Assembly: GCA_902604305.1 (NCBI GenBank)
Contig: CACKXS010000005.1
Coordinates: forward strand, 1 to 58,380
Origin: an uncultured Pelagibacteraceae bacterium
GTDB lineage: Bacteria > Pseudomonadota > Alphaproteobacteria > Pelagibacterales > Pelagibacteraceae
Direction of reading: 5' to 3'
Length of the DNA: 58,380 nucleotides
Shown: piece after piece, positions 3,286-13,609 of the stretch
Position numbering within the stretch: the stretch's first letter is position 1
Layout: each line of letters opens with the position of its first letter
Made by a program: the position numbers and the translations under genes
The notes under the pieces: model-generated
What the model was told of the DNA's origin: nothing
Databases searched by the model: none
The model's input: only the letters and a program-made list of their open reading frames with translations

Positions 3286-4866
3286 TTAGTTCAATATAAG
3301 ATCTGAAGCTTTTTCAGCTATCATTAAAGTTGGAGCATTTAAGTTTGCACTTGGAATTTCTGGCATAACAGAAGCATCTACAACTCTTAGGTTCTGTATT
3401 CCTTTAACTTTTAAATTTTCATCAACTACCGCCATATCATCAACGCCCATTTTGCAAGTACCACATGGATGATAAGCAGTTTCCGCCTTTGATCTAATAT
3501 ATTCATCCAATTCATCATCGTTTTGTTTATCGGAACCTGGACCAACTTCTTTACCTGAATGTTTTGCCAAAGAAGGTTGAGATAAGATTTTTCTTGCAAC
3601 ATGAATGCATTCTCTAGTTTGTTTTAAATCATCTTCATCTTCTAAATAATTAAATAATATTTTTGGATAATCATAAGGATTAGAAGAATTTAGAGTTATT
3701 TGTCCTCTGCTTTTTGGATGATTTGGACTTGCATGAAGTTGATATCCATGTGAATTAGGATTAACTAAACCGTGATCAATAACAAATGATGGAAAAAAAT
3801 GAAATTGTATATTTGCTATTTTTCTTTCAGGGGAAGATTTTGCGAATCCTCCAGCTTCTAAAAAAGATTTTGAACAAGGACCTGATTTAGATAAAAACCA
3901 CTGAATACCAGCTAAAACTTTTGGAATTAGTTTTGTATAAGTATAAAGAGTGTCGGGGGTTTTGCATTCTTGCATAATATATGTTTCCAAATGATCTTGA
4001 AGGTTTTTACCAACTCCTTTTATATCACTAACCACATCAATTCCTTTTTCCCTCAAATGATCTGAATTCCCAACTCCCGAAAGCATTAATAGTTGTGGTG
4101 AATTAATTGAACCACCACTTAGTATTACTTCTTTTTCGGCATAAACTTTTTCAACTTTATTTTTTATTTTTACTTCGATGCCTATTGCTTTTTTTCCATC
4201 AAAAATGATTTTTTCAACAAATGAGTTAGAAAAAATATTTAAATTTTTTCTTTTTTTTGCAGGATTTAAATAATATTTTGTAGCACTTGCTCTCTGCCCT
4301 TCATGAATTGTTGTATCAAACATACCAAATCCTTCTTGTTCTTCTCCATTCATATCTGGATTAACTACATGTCCAGCCTCTGAGGCTGAATTTATAAAAG
4401 CCTTAAATAAAGGATTTTCATTCTTTGATTGATTGACTGGGAGTGGACCCAATGAACCTCGATATTGATTTTCTCCGCCAGACCATGTTTCAATTTTTTT
4501 AAAATAAGGTAAAACTTTTTCATAAGACCAAGACTTTAATCCAAAGTTTTCCCATCTTTCATAATCATTTCGGTTTCCTCTTACAAAAACCATTCCGTTA
4601 TGAGCCGAACAACCTCCAATCATTTTACCTCTTGGACAAAATAATCTTCTATTATTTAAATGTGGTTCTGGTTCAGAATAATATTTCCAATTATATTTTG
4701 GATCATGCATTGTATATAATAATGCTAGAGGCATTTTTACTTTCCAAATATCACTCGATCCTCCTGCTTCAAATACAGCAACTTTGTTGTTTTGATTTTC
4801 TGACAATCTATTTGAAAGAACACAGCCAGCAGAACCAGCGCCAATAATTATATAATCAAATTTCAT
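3286..4866 (-). CDS. GMC-family FAD oxidoreductase (choline dehydrogenase-like)
   Basis: This FAD-dependent alcohol dehydrogenase or oxidase has 526 aa. The Rossmann motif GAGSAGC lies at residues 9-15, the GMC signature GGCSAHNG follows near residue 85, and the catalytic His is His466 in YHPCGTCKMG with Asn510 in NLNAP. The family includes choline dehydrogenase BetA (about 550 aa), but substrate cannot be fixed by motif. It is the last gene of the five-gene minus operon and overlaps the HD oxygenase gene by 4 nt. An alcohol made or used in the same pathway, such as a choline-like or hydroxylated amine, is a reasonable guess. Confidence 0.88.
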   Translation of the reverse strand: MKFDYIIIGAGSAGCVLSNRLSENQNNKVAVFEAGGSSDIWKVKMPLALLYTMHDPKYNWKYYSEPEPHLNNRRLFCPRGKMIGGCSAHNGMVFVRGNRNDYERWENFGLKSWSYEKVLPYFKKIETWSGGENQYRGSLGPLPVNQSKNENPLFKAFINSASEAGHVVNPDMNGEEQEGFGMFDTTIHEGQRASATKYYLNPAKKRKNLNIFSNSFVEKIIFDGKKAIGIEVKIKNKVEKVYAEKEVILSGGSINSPQLLMLSGVGNSDHLREKGIDVVSDIKGVGKNLQDHLETYIMQECKTPDTLYTYTKLIPKVLAGIQWFLSKSGPCSKSFLEAGGFAKSSPERKIANIQFHFFPSFVIDHGLVNPNSHGYQLHASPNHPKSRGQITLNSSNPYDYPKILFNYLEDEDDLKQTRECIHVARKILSQPSLAKHSGKEVGPGSDKQNDDELDEYIRSKAETAYHPCGTCKMGVDDMAVVDENLKVKGIQNLRVVDASVMPEIPSANLNAPTLMIAEKASDLILN

Positions 4867-5399
4867 AAAAGTTGAGAAATTAGTAATTTTTTATATTCAT
4901 CAATATTTTTTATTTTTATATTATTTTTTTTTGCTAATTCATCAAATTTTCTTAGTTTTATTGCATTTTTAAAATAAGGCATTTTTTCGAATTCATTACT
5001 TTGTTTCTTGTTTAATACACCACCTTGTAATTTTAAACTTATCTTTGACGCATTTGAAAGATGATTATAGTAACTTTTGTTTCTAGCCAAGTATCTTTTA
5101 GCCAATACGTGATATTTTATTGGTTCAACTACTTCTTTTTTAAAAAAATTTTTAAGGTATTCATAACCTATTCTTTCATGATTACCATCTTTATTGTTTT
5201 TTACTAACTCATCAGGATCTTCAATAATAAAATGTCCATAATCATGAAGCAAACAAGAGCAAACTAAAAGATCTTTAGATTTAGCTTTTTCAGCCAACAT
5301 AGCAGATTGAATCATATGTTCTGAAATTGTAATTTTTTCACCGATGTAGAGGGATTTGTTATTTTTAAAATTAGAAATAATTTTATCTAATATATGCAT
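4863..5399 (-). CDS. PhnZ/TmpB-like HD-domain mixed-valence diiron oxygenase
   Basis: The 178-aa protein carries the full set of residues I recall for the phosphonate oxygenase PhnZ, at almost identical spacing: Tyr18, Glu21, His28, His52-Asp53, His74, His97, Lys101 in HVLAKRYL, and Asp153. PhnZ oxidatively cleaves the C-P bond of 1-hydroxy-2-aminoethylphosphonate, and TmpB acts on the trimethylated analogue to release glycine betaine and phosphate. Hydrolytic HD phosphatases lack the Tyr/Glu pair and the AKRYL motif. The gene sits between a TauD-family 2-oxoglutarate dioxygenase gene and a GMC oxidoreductase gene, so a two-step hydroxylase/oxygenase pair is likely. The substrate (2-AEP, trimethyl-AEP or another) is inference. 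Confidence 0.75.
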   Translation of the reverse strand: MHILDKIISNFKNNKSLYIGEKITISEHMIQSAMLAEKAKSKDLLVCSCLLHDYGHFIIEDPDELVKNNKDGNHERIGYEYLKNFFKKEVVEPIKYHVLAKRYLARNKSYYNHLSNASKISLKLQGGVLNKKQSNEFEKMPYFKNAIKLRKFDELAKKNNIKIKNIDEYKKLLISQLL

Positions 5400-5402
5400 T
5401 TC

Positions 5403-6235
5403 TTATTGAGGATTGTCTCCTTCAATAGCAATTCTATCCATTACTCTTTCATAGCCAAGACCTTTTCCTGGATAAAAATCTGCTATTGCATAATGAATAA
5501 CACTTCTATTATCCCAAATACAAACTGCATTTTCTGTCCAGTTAAATCTACAAGTTAAATCAAGTCTTGCCTGATGTTCAAAAATTTGTTTTAAAATTTC
5601 ATCACTTTCTTCTTTACCCATACCGATTATTTCTTTGGTATATGTCCAATTAACATACAAAATTTTTTTCCCAGTTTCTGGATGAGTTCTTACAATTGGA
5701 TGTTCGTTAGAATATTCATCATAATTTTTTTTATTATTACCTTCCATTTTTTATAATTTTTTATAAAAAATTCAGCACCTAGAGAACTATGAATTGCTTT
5801 TTTATCTTTAATTTTGTCTTTTATTTTTTCATCCAAAGTTTCCCATGCAAGCTCCATATTAGAGAAACAAGTATCTCCACCAACTGGAGGAATTTTGATA
5901 GATTTAAGTATTACCGCTTTAGTTGGCTTAAAATTATAACTCACATCGCTGTGCCAATTCTCACCCCACTGATTTTTTTCATCTTCAGCTTTTATAATTC
6001 TTACGATTTCTGGATAGTCTTTTATACCCTTAACATAAGCATGAGTTTCTAGTGGCCCAAACTTTTCAGCAAGTGCAATATGTTGATCAGTTGTTAAAGG
6101 CTGATCTCTAAAAAAAATAACTTTATGTTCCAACAATAAATTGTTTATTTTACCAAAATTTTTGTCAGAAGTATCTGTAAGGTCTATACCTTTTATTTCT
6201 GCACCTAATGCCCCTGAGAGTAATTTTACGTCCAT
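5403..6235 (-). pseudogene. TauD/TfdA-family 2-oxoglutarate dioxygenase, split by a frameshift
   Basis: Two overlapping frames together encode one normal-length TauD-type enzyme (about 277 aa). The upstream frame (5690-6235) carries the iron motif His95-x-Asp97 in NWHSDVSY. The downstream frame (ending at 5403) carries EHPIVRTHPETG and the distal His and Arg in WDNRSVIHY...YERVMDR. Neither part has all the iron and 2-oxoglutarate ligands. One extra A in the coding strand restores the frame, either in the A8 run (plus-strand T8 at 5725-5732) or in the A6 run at 5747-5752. This could be a real inactivation, an assembly error, or slippage. Start and stop fit tightly between the thioesterase and HD oxygenase genes, so the locus was built as an operon gene. 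Confidence 0.8.
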
Positions 6236-6236
6236 A

Positions 6237-6704
6237 TTATTTTTTTAGTTTTCCAGTTATAACTAAATTATCTTCTTTAAATTTTGATTTATTTAAATTA
6301 ATAAATTTATCCATAATTTTATATTTTTCATCTTCAAATTCACACACTCTTCTTTTATTTAAATCTATATATAAAGCGAGCATTTCAATAGTTGCTGATA
6401 ATTTTTTTGATGATTTTTCAATCATTTCTAATCGAAAATGCAATCTTTTTTTATCATGATTAAAATAGTTTAATAGTATTTCTACTTCATCTCCTTCTTT
6501 AACTTCATTATTATATGTTGTGTGAGTTTCAACTACCATGGTACTTCTCATTGTTGTTTTTGCAGCAGTTTCTCCCATCTTAAATTTTTCAAGCATAACT
6601 TCCCACGATTTATCAAAGATTAAAACATAGTAAGCCATGTTTAGGTGATTATTGTAATCAGTCCATTCTTTTTTAATTATTTCATTTGCTACATGTATAG
6701 TCAT
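6237..6704 (-). CDS. Hotdog-fold acyl-CoA thioesterase (betainyl-CoA thioesterase-like)
   Basis: This 155-aa 4-hydroxybenzoyl-CoA-thioesterase-type protein has the active-site pattern WTDYNNHLNMAYY at residues 14-26 (Asp16 as the likely catalytic residue), then the strand segments VVETHTTY and MLALYIDL typical of the single hotdog domain. It closely recalls the thioesterase of carnitine catabolism (CdhB) that releases glycine betaine from betainyl-CoA. The BKACE gene that would make betainyl-CoA lies divergently at 7472, which strengthens this reading. Gaps to the neighbours are 3 nt and 1 nt, so it is co-transcribed. Family confidence is high and substrate moderate. Confidence 0.8.
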   Translation of the reverse strand: MTIHVANEIIKKEWTDYNNHLNMAYYVLIFDKSWEVMLEKFKMGETAAKTTMRSTMVVETHTTYNNEVKEGDEVEILLNYFNHDKKRLHFRLEMIEKSSKKLSATIEMLALYIDLNKRRVCEFEDEKYKIMDKFINLNKSKFKEDNLVITGKLKK

Positions 6705-6707
6705 ATT

Positions 6708-7436
6708 TTAATTTTTATAACTTGGATCCTCTTTGTCTAGAATTGATCTTATGGCTTTTAAATGAAGGCTTCCCATATCTGTAGAATAATTTTCCCATTC
6801 TTGGGCAGTTTTTTCAGCAATTTCATGATTTACTATTTTTAATTCTTTTTGAGTTGATAAAGCTGTAATGTATGTTTCGCAGGCTTTCTCAAAATAATAT
6901 AATTCATCAAATGCATCTGCTATCGTTTGGCCAGTAGTTAATATCCCATGATTTGCTAATAACATTACTTTATTGTTACCAATACAAGCGGCCATTTTGT
7001 TTGATTCTTCTTCAAAGCCCAAACCTCCAAAATCATTTAATACAGCTATACGATTATAAAAACGCATTGTATTTTGATCAATTGGTGGAAGCGTTGGATC
7101 TTTCAGTGTTGATAATGCAGTAGCATATTTTGAATGAATATGAAGAATACATCTAGCATGTGGCGCTTTTTTATGGATAGCGCTATGAATATTAATTGCT
7201 GTAGGATCTACAATATCTGGGTTTTTTTTTATTTCTTCAATATTTTTTTGTTTCACAAGCACCAGATCACTCACTTTTATATTACTAAAATGTGATCCAG
7301 TTCCATTTATATAAAAATCTTCATTTGAATCTGGAACACAAACACTAAAATGGTTAGCTATACCTTCGTGCATATTAAGCTTCGCTGTCCATCTGAAAAC
7401 TGCAGCTAAATCGTTTAAAATTTCTGATCTTTCCAT
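6708..7436 (-). CDS. Class II aldolase/adducin-family protein
   Basis: The 242-aa zinc-dependent family member shows GTGSHFS near residue 46, the metal motif HIHSKYATALS and a third histidine in LLANHGILTTG. Family members are retro-aldolases, epimerases or decarboxylases acting on small sugar phosphates or hydroxy-acids. It is the first gene of the minus operon, reading away from the BKACE gene with a 35-nt divergent spacer. No substrate can be assigned. If the operon handles phosphonates or betaines, it may process a hydroxylated intermediate, which is inference. Confidence 0.85.
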   Translation of the reverse strand: MERSEILNDLAAVFRWTAKLNMHEGIANHFSVCVPDSNEDFYINGTGSHFSNIKVSDLVLVKQKNIEEIKKNPDIVDPTAINIHSAIHKKAPHARCILHIHSKYATALSTLKDPTLPPIDQNTMRFYNRIAVLNDFGGLGFEEESNKMAACIGNNKVMLLANHGILTTGQTIADAFDELYYFEKACETYITALSTQKELKIVNHEIAEKTAQEWENYSTDMGSLHLKAIRSILDKEDPSYKN

Positions 7437-7471: not shown

Positions 7472-8359
7472 ATGAACAATAAAGTATTTATATCTTGCGC
7501 AGTTACAGGTTCAGGCGATACTGCATCGAAGCATCCTGATTTGCCAAAAACACCAGAACAAATTGCTAATGCTTCGATTGAGGCTGCAAAAGCTGGAGCA
7601 GCAATAGCTCATATTCATGTTAGAGAAGAAGATGGAACACCAAGCAGAAGATTAGAATTATATAAAGAAGTTGTAGATAGAGTTAGATCTAGTGAGACAG
7701 ATGTTGTTCTTAATTTAACCACAGGAATGGGTGGAGATCTAGACATTGGACAAGGAAAGAATCCTCTCGATTTTGGTCCAATGACTGATATGGCAAATGT
7801 AATGGAAAGAATCGCAAACGCAGAACAATTTTTACCAGAAATATGTACATTAGATTGTGGAACTTTAAATTTTGGAGACAGTTCGGTGATTACAGTAAAT
7901 ACACCAAATGATTTAAGAAAAGCTGCAAAAAGATTACAAGAGATAAATGTTAAACCTGAAATTGAAGCTTTTGATTTAGGTAACATGTGGTTTGGAGCTC
8001 AACTATACAAAGAAGGATTGTTAAGTGATCCGCCAATGTTTCAAATGTGTTTAGGTATACCTTGGGGTGCACCCGCAACTCCTTTAGCAATGCAAGCCAT
8101 GAAAGATATTATGCCAAAAGAAGGAATCTGGTCAGGATTTGCAATTTCAAAAAATGAAATGCCTTTTGTCGCACAAACTGTAATTATGGGAGGTAACCCA
8201 AGAGTAGGGTTAGAAGATAATTTATATTTAGAAAAAGGCAAATTAGCAACGAATGCTCAATTAGTAGAAAAAGCAATTAGAATTGTTACCGATCTTGGTG
8301 TATCAATAATGACACCTGCTGAAACCAGAGAAAAACTAAAATTAAAAAACTATAAATAA
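7472..8359 (+). CDS. BKACE-family beta-keto acid cleavage enzyme, probable dehydrocarnitine cleavage enzyme
   Basis: The 295-aa DUF849/BKACE protein has the zinc-binding HIHVRE motif (His47, His49), the loop TTGMGGDLDIG, the TLDCGTLNFGD stretch and the late metal/active-site segment RVGLEDNLYL. BKACE enzymes condense a beta-keto acid with acetyl-CoA to give acetoacetate and a new CoA ester. The ITCAVTG-like start and the GMGGDL and TLDCGTLNFG stretches match the dehydrocarnitine-specific branch as I know it, whose product is betainyl-CoA. The betainyl-CoA-type thioesterase gene next door supports this. It is a single gene converging on the SDR gene. Confidence 0.82.
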   Translation: MNNKVFISCAVTGSGDTASKHPDLPKTPEQIANASIEAAKAGAAIAHIHVREEDGTPSRRLELYKEVVDRVRSSETDVVLNLTTGMGGDLDIGQGKNPLDFGPMTDMANVMERIANAEQFLPEICTLDCGTLNFGDSSVITVNTPNDLRKAAKRLQEINVKPEIEAFDLGNMWFGAQLYKEGLLSDPPMFQMCLGIPWGAPATPLAMQAMKDIMPKEGIWSGFAISKNEMPFVAQTVIMGGNPRVGLEDNLYLEKGKLATNAQLVEKAIRIVTDLGVSIMTPAETREKLKLKNYK

Positions 8360-8370
8360 TTCAAGATTAT

Positions 8371-9156
8371 TTAGTCCACTCTTATAGTATTTCCATCTAC
8401 TGGAAAGATTTGACCAGATATTTTTTCACTGTCCTTTGAAATTAAAAATGAACACATATTTGCTATATCGTCTTGAGAAATCCATGAATTTATTGAGGCC
8501 ATAGACAAAAAATCTTTTTCAATTATTTTTTTTGAAACTTTAAGAAATTTTGCTTTATCTCTTATTACTCTATCCATTCTATCCCCTTTAATTGTTCCTG
8601 GACAAACAGCATTTACTCTTATTTTAAACTTGCCCAGCTCTATTGCTAAAGTCTTTGTTACTCCTATAATTGCCCACTTGCTAGCTGCGTATGGAGATCG
8701 TAATGCAAAACCCATAATTCCTGCAGTAGAAGAAATATTTATTATAGAACCACCTTTATTATTTTTAAGCATTGGTATTGCAAGTTTTGTAAAGTAAAAA
8801 TGACTTATAACATTCGTTTTTAAAGTTTGTTCCCAGTCATCAGAACTTAACTTTTCTATATTTCCAGTTGGACCTGCAACTCCTACATTATTAATTAATG
8901 CATCAATTTTTTTTGTTTTTTTTCTAACTTTGCTGAAAAAATTTGAAACCTCATATTCATCAGAAGCATCACATTCATACGTAAATAATTTTTTTTTATT
9001 TAGTGGATGTTTTTGTGCTTTTTTTAGCAAATTGCTATCAATATCACAAATATAAACGATAGCACCTCTTGAAAGACATATTTTAGCAGTAGACCAACCA
9101 ATTCCTGAAGCTCCAGCTGAAATAATAATTTTTTTGTTAATTAGACTTAGCGGCAT
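8371..9156 (-). CDS. Short-chain dehydrogenase/reductase (SDR)
   Basis: This 261-aa classical SDR has a cofactor motif in SAGASGIG, Asp37-type selectivity for NAD (ICDID), NNVG, the catalytic Ser in NISSTAG and YAASK. The C-terminal tail PVDGNT is usual for the family. Its start overlaps the end of proV by 20 nt, so it is translationally tied to a betaine importer. Carnitine 3-dehydrogenase is otherwise missing from this window, and an SDR in this place is a candidate to oxidise carnitine or a related hydroxylated amine. That role is inference only. Confidence 0.88.
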   Translation of the reverse strand: MPLSLINKKIIISAGASGIGWSTAKICLSRGAIVYICDIDSNLLKKAQKHPLNKKKLFTYECDASDEYEVSNFFSKVRKKTKKIDALINNVGVAGPTGNIEKLSSDDWEQTLKTNVISHFYFTKLAIPMLKNNKGGSIINISSTAGIMGFALRSPYAASKWAIIGVTKTLAIELGKFKIRVNAVCPGTIKGDRMDRVIRDKAKFLKVSKKIIEKDFLSMASINSWISQDDIANMCSFLISKDSEKISGQIFPVDGNTIRVD

Positions 9157-10189
9157 CAGCCATATGTTCTTTTGTTAAGGCTTTTGAAAGTTCTTTTTGA
9201 GTTAAGTATCCCTTTACATTTCCACTCTTATCAACAACCTCACAATTTGAATTTGAGCAAACAACTTTTGGTAAAAACTCATCTAAAAATTGATCTTCTT
9301 GAACCTTTATAAGGTTAGATTTATCAATATCATTAGATGAATTTGCAGGAGTCATAATAATTTTAGCTTTTATTACTTTTGCTCTATTTACATCTTTAAC
9401 GAAAGCTTCAACATAGTCATCAGCAGGATTCATAATAATATCTATTGGAGTTCCTACTTGCACTAATCTTCCTCCATTTAATATACCTATATGATCTCCT
9501 AACCTTAATGATTCATCTAAATCATGAGTTATAAATACTATTGTTTTTTTTAGTTCGCTTTGTAAATCTATTAACTGTTTTTGCATATCGCTTCTTATTA
9601 AAGGATCTAAAGCAGAAAAAGCTTCATCCATTAACATTATATCTGTATTGGTTGCAAGTGCTCTTGCTAAACCTACTCTTTGTTGCATACCACCAGACAA
9701 CTGGTTAGGGTATTGATGCTCAAAACCAGTTAAACCGACTGCTTCTATTTTTTCCATTGCAGTTTTGTTTCTTTCTTCTGGTTTTTGACCTTGAACCTCA
9801 AGTCCATATCCAACATTTTCTAATACTGTTTTATGTGGGAACAAACCAAATCTTTGGAACACCATACTCATTTTATGTCTTCTAAATTCAATTAATCCTT
9901 TTGGATCTAAATCCATAACATTTGTACCTTCAACAGATACCACTCCTGAAGTTGGATCTATTAATCTGTTGATATGTCTAATCAGAGTAGATTTACCTGA
10001 ACCAGATAAACCCATACATACAAAAGTTTCACCTTCCTCAATACTTAAAGAAACATCATCTAAGCCAACTGTATGACCAGTTTTTTCTAATATTTCTTCT
10101 TTTGTAGCTCCGTCTTGAACCATAGGAAGAACCTTAGAAGGCTGGTCTCCAAAAATTTTGTAAACGTTTTTAATTTCAATTTTGCTCAT
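9137..10189 (-). CDS. proV: Glycine betaine/proline ABC importer, ATP-binding protein (ProV/OpuAA type)
   Basis: This 350-aa ATPase energises quaternary-amine uptake. Walker A is GLSGSGKST near residue 68, the signature is LSGGMQQRV, Walker B is IMLMDEAFSALDP, and the switch His is in ITHDLDES. The N-terminal extension (about 50 residues before the core) is typical of OpuAA/ProV. The C-terminal 80 residues form a short CBS-like regulatory region. The gene follows proW by 4 nt and overlaps the SDR. Substrate range (betaine, carnitine, proline betaine, choline) is not visible. Confidence 0.93.
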   Translation of the reverse strand: MSKIEIKNVYKIFGDQPSKVLPMVQDGATKEEILEKTGHTVGLDDVSLSIEEGETFVCMGLSGSGKSTLIRHINRLIDPTSGVVSVEGTNVMDLDPKGLIEFRRHKMSMVFQRFGLFPHKTVLENVGYGLEVQGQKPEERNKTAMEKIEAVGLTGFEHQYPNQLSGGMQQRVGLARALATNTDIMLMDEAFSALDPLIRSDMQKQLIDLQSELKKTIVFITHDLDESLRLGDHIGILNGGRLVQVGTPIDIIMNPADDYVEAFVKDVNRAKVIKAKIIMTPANSSNDIDKSNLIKVQEDQFLDEFLPKVVCSNSNCEVVDKSGNVKGYLTQKELSKALTKEHMADAAKSN

Positions 10190-10193
10190 ATTT

Positions 10194-11210
10194 TTATAAC
10201 TTTATTTTTTTTGTTTTGGTTCTTTCTTGAATTTTCTCTCCGTAAGATTGTGTAATTCGATCGAATATAATAGCTAGCAAAACAATTGCAATACCTGCTT
10301 CAGTAGCCATACCCACATTCAGTTGTTGTAGTCCTAATAAAACTTCATCTCCAATTCCTCTAGTTCCTATCATAGACGCAATAACTACCATTGCCAATGC
10401 CATCATAGTGCATTGGTTTATTCCTTGCATTATATTTGGAAGGGCTAAAGGCAATTGCACTCCCCATAACTTTTGTTTTTTACTTGCTCCAAAAGCTTCT
10501 GCTGCTTCTACAACTTCTGTATCAACCAATCTAATTCCAAGATCAGTTAATCTTATTAAAGGAGGAACGGCATATACAAATATTGCAAAAATAGCAGGAA
10601 CTGCACCTAAACCAAACAATAAAATTCCTGGAATTAAATAGCAAAAACTTGGAATAGTTTGCATTAAATCAAGTATTGGCAATATGGCATTTCTTACTTT
10701 TTTATTTCTTGCCATCATTATTCCAACAGGAATACCAATGACCAAACAAAGCAACATTCCAATAACAACTATACAAGTCGTCATAATACATTTATCCCAA
10801 TATCTAGGACTTAAAAAGCCTAGAAAGAAAACACAGAAAGCGACCATAATTGTTGTTCCCATATTTCTTCCACTAGCAAAATATGCAAGAGCAATTACTG
10901 AAATCATTAGTAATGGCCAAGGCAACCCAACCATAAAATTTTTCATATCTGTGTAAAGACCTAGTAAGAAATTATTAATTCCTTCAAAAAACATTCCATA
11001 TTCTCTAATAAGTTTATCAAAACCCTCGTTTAAATAAGGCATCAAAGGAAGATCTAGCCACTTAGGCCAGTTACCTAACCAAGAAAGATCTGTAAATAAA
11101 ATTGAAACACTTTCGGGTCTATATTTTGAACTTGTATAAGCAATATAAACCATTGCACAAAAAGCCACTAAATATAGTGAATATAAAATATGTTTTTTAT
11201 ATTTTCCCAT
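10194..11210 (-). CDS. proW: Glycine betaine/proline ABC importer, permease (ProW/OpuAB type)
   Basis: The 338-aa inner-membrane subunit has about seven or eight hydrophobic helices and the EAA loop EVVEAAEAFGASKKQKLWGVQLPLA, which contacts the ATPase. An N-terminal helix (about residues 9-27) and a long polar stretch precede the core, as in ProW. It lies between proX and proV and is separated from proX by an intrinsic terminator, so it is probably expressed at a lower level than proX by read-through. Confidence 0.93.
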   Translation of the reverse strand: MGKYKKHILYSLYLVAFCAMVYIAYTSSKYRPESVSILFTDLSWLGNWPKWLDLPLMPYLNEGFDKLIREYGMFFEGINNFLLGLYTDMKNFMVGLPWPLLMISVIALAYFASGRNMGTTIMVAFCVFFLGFLSPRYWDKCIMTTCIVVIGMLLCLVIGIPVGIMMARNKKVRNAILPILDLMQTIPSFCYLIPGILLFGLGAVPAIFAIFVYAVPPLIRLTDLGIRLVDTEVVEAAEAFGASKKQKLWGVQLPLALPNIMQGINQCTMMALAMVVIASMIGTRGIGDEVLLGLQQLNVGMATEAGIAIVLLAIIFDRITQSYGEKIQERTKTKKIKL

Positions 11211-11228
11211 TTATTCTTTCTCTAAAAA

Positions 11229-11252
11229 CTAAGAGCCCTTTCGGGCTCTTAG
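11229..11252 (-). terminator. Intrinsic terminator between proX and proW
   Basis: On the minus strand the RNA forms a perfect 10-bp stem, CUAAGAGCCC with GGGCUCUUAG, capped by a GAAA tetraloop and followed at once by UUUUU. It lies 22 nt after the proX stop and upstream of proW. Most transcripts should end here, leaving partial read-through to proW, proV and the SDR. Confidence 0.9.
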
Positions 11253-11273
11253 AATTAATATTTATTTTAAAAA

Positions 11274-12299
11274 TTAAAGAGTATCTTTAACTTTCGCAGC
11301 AACATCAGCTGGTACCCATTTTGTCCACATACCAGTGTTTGATAAGAAATGTTTAGCTGTTGCTTCCATATCTCCACCTGATTCATCCATATAGAATGCA
11401 AGTGATCTGTTTACATCTGGTGTTGGTACAGAATAAGCTCTAATAAAGTCTACAATTTTTTTATTAGATTTTTTATTTGCAAATGTTGTTGATGCAGATT
11501 TTGTTAAAGCCATGTTAACATAAGCGCTTGCACATGTATCTGTATATGCGTCAGGTCCATCGGCTTTAATTTTTTCTACAACTGCCATCATTTTAGTCCA
11601 GCATGCGTTATCATAAGCAGGCTCTTCAAGTTGCACTAAGTCAACTTTTCCCATTAAACCAGTTGGTGTCCAGTAGTAAGAAAATACTGGTTTACCTTTT
11701 TTAAATGCTCCAGCAATTGCAGCATCTAAAGCTCCACCTGAACCTGGGTCAAAGTTTGTATAGTATTCATCTAAGCCATAAACTTTATGTTTAACCATAT
11801 TAATAGTGTAACAAGTCCATCCTGATATACAGCTTGTCATTCTACCTTTTCCTGGTGCTTCAGGATCAGCAAATAATTTTGCAATATCCGGATTCTTCAT
11901 ATCATCAACAGATTTTAAACCGTACTTATCTGCAGTTGGTTTATCTACGTAGAAACCTTGAGTTGACGAAGGAGTGTTAATACCTAGCTCAATAATTTTA
12001 CCTGCTGCTACAGCTTCTTCATGCATTTGAACAATATTATCTCTCCAAACTTCAGTGATAATATCAAGCTGTTGATCATAATGTGCAGCCATAATTGGAC
12101 TAGTACTTCCTTTCGTCACTTCAACTTGGCAGCCATATCCGTGTTCAAGAATATAACCAACAATTGCCGTGTGAACGTTTGCACTATCCCAGTCGAAATC
12201 TCCCAAATGCACTTTGCAAGCAGCATTAGCACTTGTCGTGCCAATCGATGTTACAGCAATAAATGCAATCGAAAGAAATATTTTTTTAAGAAACTTCAT
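11274..12299 (-). CDS. proX: Glycine betaine/proline-type substrate-binding protein (ProX/OpuAC)
   Basis: This 341-aa periplasmic binding protein starts with a signal peptide ending near ANA (residues 25-27). Ligand-pocket aromatics typical of type II quaternary-amine binders are present, such as the Trp of GDFDWDSANVH, SGWTCYTINM, FSYYWTPTGLMG and the late MWTKWVP. A strong Shine-Dalgarno (ggaggga, complement of 12304-12310) precedes the ATG. The strong ribosome site and the following terminator both favour high expression of this subunit over the membrane parts. Confidence 0.93.
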   Translation of the reverse strand: MKFLKKIFLSIAFIAVTSIGTTSANAACKVHLGDFDWDSANVHTAIVGYILEHGYGCQVEVTKGSTSPIMAAHYDQQLDIITEVWRDNIVQMHEEAVAAGKIIELGINTPSSTQGFYVDKPTADKYGLKSVDDMKNPDIAKLFADPEAPGKGRMTSCISGWTCYTINMVKHKVYGLDEYYTNFDPGSGGALDAAIAGAFKKGKPVFSYYWTPTGLMGKVDLVQLEEPAYDNACWTKMMAVVEKIKADGPDAYTDTCASAYVNMALTKSASTTFANKKSNKKIVDFIRAYSVPTPDVNRSLAFYMDESGGDMEATAKHFLSNTGMWTKWVPADVAAKVKDTL

Positions 12300-12475: not shown

Positions 12476-13609
12476 ATGGGAATAGAAATTTCTAAAGTTT
12501 CAAAAAATGGATCAGCGTTAAATGTTGAGTGGAGTGATGGCGAAAAAAGCAATTTTCACTTTATGTGGTTAAGGGATAACTGCCCAACAGCTCATGACAA
12601 AGACTCAAGACATAGGATGTTTAATATACTTGAAGTTTCAACAAAAATAGAACCAAAAACATGTAAAATTAATAATCAAGGTAAGTTAGAAATCGAGTGG
12701 AGTGAAGGAAACCACGTAAGTTATTATGATCAAGAATGGTTAAGAAAAAATTGTTATACAATAAATAATAATAAAAAATATAACTCTCCTTATAAATTAT
12801 GGGACTGTTCTTTACAAAAAAATTTAGAAACTATCAAAATAGATCATGATGAAATTATTAATTCTGAAGAAGGTTTAATAAAGTGGTTAGAACTTTTACA
12901 TTATAAGGGAATTGCAATTGTTAAAAATGCTCCAACAGAGAAAGAATCTGCTTTTAAAGTTTTAAACAGAATAAGTCATACAAGAGAAACTTTTTTTAAA
13001 ACTCCTTTTGAAGTTGTAAATATTCCAAAACCTAATAACTCAGCTTACACAGCGCATGCTTTAAGGAATCATATGGACTTACCTTGGTTTGAAAATCCTC
13101 CGGGTTATCAATTTCTTCATTGTTTAATTAATTCGGCAAAAGGAGGAGATTCTTCAGCAATAGATGCTTTTGCGGTAGCAGATTATTTAAGAAATAATGA
13201 AAAAAAAATATTTGAAACACTGGTTAATATACCTCTTAAATTTAAAGATAAAGATTACACACAAGAAGCCCATAGAAGTTTTTATGCTCCAGCAATTTCT
13301 TTAACTAAAGATGGTGATTATAACGATATAAGATTTAGTGTAGCAACCATGGACGCCTTAGATTGTCATCCGGATGTTATGGATAAAGTTTACAAAGCTC
13401 ACCATAGATTTGGAAATCTTTTGCATGATGATAAGTTTCAAATAAATTTTAGGCTTGAGCCAGGTGATATTTTTTCATTTAATAATAGAAGAGTTTTACA
13501 CGGTAGAACTGAATTTGATCCAAATTCAGGTCATAGGCATCTTCAAGGCTATTATATGGATCGTGATGAAATTATAGGAAGATTAAGTTATTTAAAAAAT
13601 AATTTATAA
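12476..13609 (+). CDS. Gamma-butyrobetaine hydroxylase-family 2-oxoglutarate oxygenase (BBOX/TmpA-like)
   Basis: The 377-aa protein has the two-part layout of gamma-butyrobetaine hydroxylase: an N-terminal DUF971-like domain (WLRDNCP at residues 31-37) and a TauD-like catalytic domain. Iron ligands are His199-x-Asp201 in HMDLPW and His342 in VLHGRTEF. The segment ENPPGYQFLHCL matches the substrate-binding stretch of BBOX. The N-terminal zinc site looks degenerate: of the human CxCxxC only Cys36 remains, with His80 in the place of the fourth ligand. The likely reaction is gamma-butyrobetaine to carnitine. The phosphonate enzyme TmpA belongs to the same family and cannot be excluded. It is divergent from proX. 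Confidence 0.82.
   Translation: MGIEISKVSKNGSALNVEWSDGEKSNFHFMWLRDNCPTAHDKDSRHRMFNILEVSTKIEPKTCKINNQGKLEIEWSEGNHVSYYDQEWLRKNCYTINNNKKYNSPYKLWDCSLQKNLETIKIDHDEIINSEEGLIKWLELLHYKGIAIVKNAPTEKESAFKVLNRISHTRETFFKTPFEVVNIPKPNNSAYTAHALRNHMDLPWFENPPGYQFLHCLINSAKGGDSSAIDAFAVADYLRNNEKKIFETLVNIPLKFKDKDYTQEAHRSFYAPAISLTKDGDYNDIRFSVATMDALDCHPDVMDKVYKAHHRFGNLLHDDKFQINFRLEPGDIFSFNNRRVLHGRTEFDPNSGHRHLQGYYMDRDEIIGRLSYLKNNL

Follow-up and report, generated by a model that had tools for sequence, protein, structure and literature searches.

Which reaction does an HD-domain protein of the SAR11 bacteria carry out when it is encoded within an island of glycine betaine genes, and which enzyme supplies its substrate? 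The question is raised by a locus of an uncultured Pelagibacteraceae bacterium (contig CACKXS010000005.1 of assembly GCA_902604305.1), of which a stretch of 58,380 nucleotides, hereafter the window, was analyzed. The source assembly comprises 860,642 bases in 41 contigs and is 72% complete, and the nearest named loci are those of uncultured Pelagibacteraceae (SAR11), with an HD protein 97% identical to that of the window. On the minus strand, genes for a class II aldolase (7436-6708), a thioesterase (6704-6237), a broken TauD-family dioxygenase (6235-5403), the HD protein (5399-4863) and a GMC oxidoreductase (4866-3286) follow one another with intergenic gaps of 1-3 bases or, where the GMC start overlaps the HD stop, an overlap of 4 bases; because of this spacing the row has the appearance of one transcription unit. 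An earlier note on this DNA had described it as an operon for a PhnZ/TmpB-like diiron oxygenase without classical phn genes, possibly acting on a substrate that differs from both known ones. No phn genes were found among the 10 open reading frames (ORFs) scanned between 29 and 13609, the part of the genome that was searched for them. Our analysis shows that the HD oxygenase is real and belongs to a known kind, that the gene usually found next to it is a new neighbor for this kind, and that the island in which it is located has been published for other reasons. Judging from the sequences, its substrate is probably known and its hydroxylase probably new.

Identity of the HD-domain oxygenase

The HD protein (178 amino acids; 4863..5399, minus strand) was assigned by family scan, active-site residues, phylogeny and a structural model to the PhnZ/TmpB type of mixed-valent diiron oxygenases, as a member of a SAR11-specific clade. 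It matched the Phn-HD model TIGR03276 with 173.3 bits and the hydroxymethylphosphonate dioxygenase model NF052439 with 128.8 bits, under the curated cut-offs of 214.6 and 300, respectively, and its closest solved structures by sequence are TmpB (5e-31) and PhnZ (3e-26). The earlier note had read a PhnZ residue set in an ORF at 4863-5399; the ORF lies there, and all nine residues (Y18, E21, H28, H52-D53, H74, H97, K101 and D153) are exact. They are also present in PhnZ and TmpB and are unsubstituted in 86 distinct SAR11 HD sequences, an alignment that excludes identical sequences and 30 short duplicates (L114-L143) and in which truncated sequences leave at most one row missing per residue position. 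The protein contains the ligand set H...HD...H...H...D, with 0 substitutions among the 86 sequences. The equivalents of PhnZ H62, K108, S126, Q133 and R158, which we take to have a substrate-binding role, are retained in 85 or 86 of the 86. Residues Y18 and E21 correspond to the YxxE substrate loop, and this Tyr/Glu pair is lost in none of the aligned sequences; the loop is not present in MIOX, according to the available portion of PMC8177086.

An AlphaFold model of the HD protein, obtained from 13 aligned sequences, had a pLDDT of 91.5 and a pTM of 0.88, a confidence that rests on one of five models, the other four having a mean pLDDT of 41-58. The model superimposed on TmpB with a Z score of 25.6 (rmsd 1.4 over 166 residues) and on PhnZ with a Z score of 25.0, versus 10.3 for MIOX and 9.7 or less for other HD proteins. 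The fold and the conserved residues together confirm the 4863-5399 protein, at the level of sequence and predicted structure, as an HD diiron oxygenase of the PhnZ/TmpB type and not a hydrolase, its catalysis being predicted. The alternative that it is an HD phosphohydrolase or a MIOX-like carbon-carbon oxygenase unrelated to phosphonates draws on its membership in the HD superfamily; the Z scores and the retention of both the YxxE loop and the phosphonate-site residues rule against it, and we regard it as extremely improbable.

The SAR11 HD proteins formed a single clade (support 100/100) on a long branch in two trees, one of 81 and one of 63 rows. A placement with hydrolytic HD proteins, which would have told against the earlier reading, was not observed. 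The clade lies outside a seven-row clade of PhnZ active on 2-aminoethylphosphonate (2-AEP), which had a support of 100/99 in one tree and 92/99 in the other. Near-identical rows were thinned, one tree is also without L179, L197, L030 and L109, and both are without the characterized Gimesia and Prochlorococcus PhnZ and hold no characterized methylphosphonate-type PhnZ row.

Other HD oxygenase types were observed in these bacteria. A second SAR11 type, ~44% identical, occurs in 12 of the 300 genomes surveyed below, which were not counted there as HD-bearing unless they also carried the main type (G633); in L180, the one SAR11 example that was examined, a gene for a PhnD-type binding protein lies close by. 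A type other than the main one is likewise present in the SAR11 sister family (L181-L184), in L181 near an ABC transporter and a PTP-like phosphatase.

The adjacent TauD-family dioxygenase and a proposed route

The gene upstream of HD encodes a TauD/TfdA-family 2-oxoglutarate dioxygenase, and in the window it is broken. Its N-terminal half (5690..6235, minus strand) is separated by a frameshift near 5751 from its C-terminal half (5403..5747, minus strand), which lies in another frame in an ORF overlapping the first; compared with relatives ~95% identical, there is a one-base gap at this point. The shift is either an assembly error or a recent mutation, and unless it is the former, the cell would need another hydroxylase. 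The earlier account of the partner oxygenases had included TauD and had missed, besides the frameshift, an oxygenase gene of the gamma-butyrobetaine hydroxylase (GBBH)/TmpA superfamily in the same island (12476..13609, plus strand). By score this ORF is closer to GBBH (319.7 bits; cut-off, 414.75) than to TmpA (NF049936, 273.3 bits; cut-off, 400), and neither cut-off is reached.

Elsewhere, 81 of 110 loci examined have TauD intact as a single ORF of 275-279 amino acids. Among the 110, a group of 18 (L013-L030) has an HD of another type and lacks this TauD, L063 has it split as in the window, and L050 has the C-terminal part alone. An intact ortholog matched taurine dioxygenase (PRK09553) with 221.9 bits, under the cut-off of 313. 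Like taurine dioxygenase, the 81 HD-linked sequences keep the Fe triad and the residues for 2-oxoglutarate and the acid group, including H70, V102, R266 and R270 (E. coli numbering), but unlike it they all carry the replacements Y73V, D94W and N95G. We take these three positions to form the taurine-amine side of the pocket and its acid-binding side to be kept. The same changes are found in all 11 aligned orthologs without an adjacent HD gene (3 by GMC, 2 elsewhere in SAR11 and 6 in the sister family), whereas 9 of 10 canonical paralogs of TauD from genomes of the sister family retain both Y73 and D94. Among 28 other alphaproteobacterial homologs, V73 (10) and G95 (21) are common and the commonest letters at position 94 are F (11), A (3), R (2) and K (2), with W outside the top four, so that only W94 is distinctive. 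The pattern is suggestive of a substrate with the same acid end as taurine and a different amine end, perhaps a trimethylated one. Alignment columns that might tell HD-linked from HD-less TauD copies were uninformative (best, 0.79 versus 0.21). TauD orthologs also occur in quite other places (L263-L268, L259, L262, L305 and L308): in the sister family near EamA and an alkylsulfatase-family gene (L263 was scanned), and in SAR11 in the vicinity of an Amt-SpoIIE fusion, as in L259 and L308, or of a glycosyltransferase, as in L308.

Beyond the computed fold, residues, gene order, island context and co-occurrence, we infer a substrate, a hydroxylase role for TauD and a role for the GMC protein. We put at about an even chance the proposal that the 178-residue protein is a divergent, SAR11-specific PhnZ/TmpB-type enzyme that performs the TmpB reaction and is fed mostly by the adjacent TauD and sometimes by TmpA. 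In most genomes, TauD would use 2-oxoglutarate and O2 to convert trimethylaminoethylphosphonate (TMAEP) to (R)-1-hydroxy-TMAEP, which in a few genomes would be supplied instead by a true TmpA, that is, one scoring over 400 bits, encoded elsewhere. The HD oxygenase would then use O2 for oxidative cleavage of the carbon-phosphorus (C-P) bond of (R)-1-hydroxy-2-(trimethylammonio)ethylphosphonate, yielding glycine betaine and phosphate. The thioesterase, the GMC protein, the carnitine genes and the betaine-type transporter would contribute to glycine betaine as well.

Two described systems can be compared with this route. PhnY, the partner of PhnZ, is a PhyH-type oxygenase, and on a Dietzia plasmid the annotated neighbor of an HD gene belongs to the phytanoyl-CoA dioxygenase family; some annotated plasmid HD loci lie in C-P lyase, PhnCDE or PhnX clusters. 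The PhnY*/PhnZ pair for 2-AEP and the Gimesia PhnY/PhnZ pair for methylphosphonate share with the SAR11 proteins a two-step logic of hydroxylase and HD oxygenase and a conserved active site; the SAR11 HD differs in lying outside the PhnZ clade, the Gimesia sequence having been compared through the family model alone. The TmpA/TmpB pathway, as outlined for Leisingera caerulea (Rajakovich 2019), has the same HD ligand set and YxxE loop, and its product, glycine betaine, is the probable SAR11 product as well. It differs in the usual neighbor of HD, for in SAR11 a short TauD takes the place of the BBOX-family TmpA.

Co-occurrence and alternative explanations

In 80 Pelagibacteraceae loci chosen for the HD gene, loci cut by contig ends included, we found genes for GMC in 76, TauD in 73, the thioesterase in 66, BKACE in 42, an SDR in 39, a BBOX-family oxygenase in 26, the carnitine dehydrogenase family in 24 and the aldolase in 13. 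The TauD-HD-GMC arrangement is not a chance one, since it recurs in dozens of Pelagibacteraceae loci. In 300 genomes of one SAR11 genus, in which absences are soft because completeness is only ~50-100%, HD is present in 57, TauD in 94 and both in 49 (p = 8e-22); the two are adjacent in 48 of the 49, with gaps of 3-21 bases except in the broken window copy, and HD adjoins GMC in 52 of the 53 genomes with both. The coupling of HD to TauD, thioesterase and GMC that had been read from the window is the usual arrangement, and that to the aldolase is optional; the aldolase was rejected as a member of the route on its 13 of 80 loci. Outside SAR11 and its sister family, 49 HD loci (L111-L113, L146-L179 and L186-L197) were examined with flanks of 5-8 kb, in some cases shortened by the end of the contig; 17 have a BBOX-family gene near HD and none has the SAR11-like TauD.

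True TmpA was found in 7 of the 300 genomes. HD is present in 6 of these 7, versus 51 of the 293 without TmpA (p = 2.2e-4), and the one TmpA genome without HD (G698) is 59% complete; among TauD-bearing genomes, TmpA occurs in 6 of 49 with HD versus 0 of 45 without (p = 0.017). No TmpA over the cut-off was found in the window's own 72%-complete genome. In one locus (L108) TmpA (531.7 bits) is divergent from a same-clade HD gene, with 84 bases between them. In the eight other loci with such a TmpA that were read (L299, L300 and L335-L340), SAR11 TmpA lies in an operon without HD, consisting of a dimethylglycine dehydrogenase (DMGDH)-like FAD-GcvT fusion, a separate GcvT, an EamA transporter and TmpA (complete in 7 of the 8, with two genes unlabelled in L340), so that the HD partner would be the island copy. 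The sole example of another row among the loci searched (L106) holds a homocysteine S-methyltransferase family gene (98.5 bits; betaine-homocysteine methyltransferase cut-off, 338), a dimethylglycine/sarcosine-dehydrogenase-like fusion, TauD, HD, GMC, a small ORF and EamA. The carnitine genes, the betainyl-CoA-type thioesterase, the betaine-type ABC transporter and the TmpA of six HD genomes point, as far as sequence can, to the known TmpB substrate, and with this glycine betaine context the new substrate suggested earlier becomes the less likely option.

Several results, however, weigh against a TmpB reaction fed by TauD. The TmpB model NF049941 matched the HD protein with 152.9 bits, about half its curated cut-off of 300. 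A joint clade of SAR11 HD and the TmpB group, which average 35-36% identity, had a support of 34/30 and a p value of 0.333 in the approximately unbiased test, and is neither shown nor rejected. At six columns separating TmpB from phn-operon HD proteins, SAR11 agrees with TmpB at 1, with the other group at 1 and with neither at 4; at four columns separating TmpB from the PhnZ clade, it agrees with TmpB at 0, with PhnZ at 1 and with neither at 3. Few and mostly occupied by residues of SAR11's own, these columns were of little help. The p values for co-occurrence ignore kinship, and among the 115 genomes with a GMC ortholog 46 have both HD and TauD, 7 HD only, 42 TauD only and 20 neither (p = 0.026); the HD-TauD link within GMC- or island-bearing genomes is thus modest, and much of the co-occurrence mirrors the shared island. 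TauD occurs without HD in 45 of its 94 genomes, which rules it out as an obligate or dedicated partner: the earlier proposal of TauD as a variant partner survives in the adjacency and fails in exclusivity. Of the eight HD-only genomes, five (L279-L282 and L010) have thioesterase-HD-GMC without TauD and no TmpA over the cut-off; in the other three TauD may have been cut off, since HD lies at the end of its contig in G568 and G779 and gave a partial match in G023. Finally, a GMC ortholog, 82-84% identical, also sits in a different operon (L323, L327 and L328; with FAD_binding_4, SDR, Ldh_2 and GSDH proteins in L328 and genes of similar length in the other two), and the choline role of GMC is for this reason putative.

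Between thioesterase and GMC, the loci examined have TauD-HD, TauD, HD, EamA or no gene at all, and HD presence switches at least 8 times on a quick tree of TauD (77 rows, 71 scored); TauD and HD are cassettes that usually, and not always, travel together. They might work apart, an explanation to which we give appreciable weight while thinking it rather unlikely: TauD and GMC would turn a trimethylammonioethyl sulfonate or sulfate ester, such as taurobetaine or choline-O-sulfate, into betaine aldehyde and then glycine betaine, and HD would act on the same substrate as proposed above, obtained in trans from TmpA or from a different BBOX-family enzyme. The TauD-only genomes fit this, as do the common thioesterase-TauD-GMC rows without HD and the five rows with HD and no TauD; in G020, moreover, TauD-GMC lies on one contig and HD on another, near a TmpA-like gene (~340 bits, under the cut-off), and in the sister-family locus L263 TauD is two genes from the alkylsulfatase-family gene. 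A TauD that keeps its presumed acid-binding side and has lost its presumed taurine-amine side would suit such substrates as well. Against separate action stand the presence of TauD in 49 of the 57 HD genomes, with the adjacency described, and the restriction of TmpA over the cut-off to 6 of the 57, which would leave most without a known HD hydroxylase.

We consider it unlikely that the TauD-HD pair acts on some other phosphonate, be it 2-AEP, methylphosphonate or a hydroxyalkylphosphonate, as the earlier note had suggested. The clade of its own and the SAR11-specific residues at diagnostic columns (4 of the 6 and 3 of the 4) would agree with this, and a formate dehydrogenase family gene upstream in 6 of the 80 HD loci would be in keeping with methylphosphonate as a source of formate; the low number, and in L052 an opposite-strand gene interposed between that gene and TauD, weaken it as evidence of methylphosphonate use. 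The co-occurrence with TmpA and the glycine betaine context argue the other way, as does the position outside the PhnZ clade (100/99), in trees whose rows include no characterized methylphosphonate-type PhnZ. The TmpB reaction fed mostly by TauD could also be extended, in a form that we regard as speculative and improbable as it stands, to a single TauD with a quaternary-ammonium pocket that would accept sulfur as well as phosphorus analogues of choline: a sulfonate or sulfate would break down to betaine aldehyde and go on via GMC, a phosphonate would give a stable alpha-hydroxyphosphonate cleaved by the inserted HD, and all would end in glycine betaine.

The surrounding island and its significance

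The GMC oxidoreductase (526 amino acids; 3286..4866, minus strand) belongs by family models to the choline-dehydrogenase subfamily: it scored 743.6 bits against NF002550, above the cut-off of 605, and 675.8 bits against the BetA model TIGR01810, under the cut-off of 732.1, with choline dehydrogenase as the closest solved structure; a second GMC match of 588 bits was left out of the analysis. The 4HBT_2 thioesterase (6237..6704, minus strand), of the betainyl-CoA thioesterase type by analogy, resembles the C-terminal part of carnitine 3-dehydrogenase PRK07531. It is just 66-69% identical to its counterparts in L031-L037, whose TauD, HD and GMC are 96-99% identical to those of the window, and what looks like a recombination boundary lies between thioesterase and TauD. 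The class II aldolase family protein (6708..7436, minus strand; family scan) is an optional island gene outside the proposed route, other layouts having an HpcH/HpaI protein, both or neither. Beyond it lie an island ORF (7472..8359, plus strand; sequence scans and the published island), an SDR dehydrogenase (8371..9156, minus strand; sequence scans) and an ABC transporter (9137..12299, minus strand) made up of an ATPase (9137-10189), a permease (10194-11210) and a binding protein (11274-12299), its betaine/proline label coming solely from sequence reading and comparison with the published island. At 29-1138 the window encodes a 369-residue protein whose match to arginine deiminase barely exceeds the cut-off (23.2 versus 22.8 bits); the family of this protein is present in 21 of the 80 HD loci. 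A 2-oxoglutarate-Fe(II) oxygenase of the DIOX_N family (L032:14613-15581) represents a family found downstream of GMC in 54 of the 80.

A glycine betaine genomic island of Arctic SAR11 was described in 2025 (PMC12421898); a further literature search, in one open-access library, led only to this paper again. According to its available text, it shares with the window's island HADH, ALDH, GPDP, BBOX, three ABC genes, an alcohol dehydrogenase, BKACE, class II aldolase, thioesterase and choline dehydrogenase, gene kinds in a similar order; the window differs in its stretch from SDR to GMC, which lacks genes for carnitine dehydrogenase and SMR. By gene names rather than sequences, the published order ACOT-SMR-BBOX(2)-CHDH-DMT resembles thioesterase-SMR-TauD-GMC-EamA of L292, and from these names and this order the published BBOX(2) is probably TauD. 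No HD gene is among the 17 genes named in the legend, the main text nowhere uses the word phosphonate, and the arrangement is given there as not present in 18 earlier single-contig SAR11 genomes.

These results bear on how marine phnZ is read. In the passages available, published estimates of its abundance disagree, from under 1% to ~20% of expected genomes (PMC10574752); 45% of marine phnZ sequences were assigned to Pelagibacterales, with phnZ counted among 2-AEP genes (PMC9381506); and phnZ was split into subclades of which the original one alone is specific for 2-AEP (PMC8316502). If one TauD did serve both kinds of choline analogue, it would add a third hydroxylase family to the oxidative C-P route, possibly behind a large share of surface-ocean phnZ. 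Should the substrate be a trimethylated phosphonate, the phnZ signal of SAR11 may in large part reflect salvage of phosphate and an osmolyte rather than use of 2-AEP. The analysis suggests that the HD enzyme may yield both phosphate and an osmolyte from one molecule in a very common ocean bacterium.

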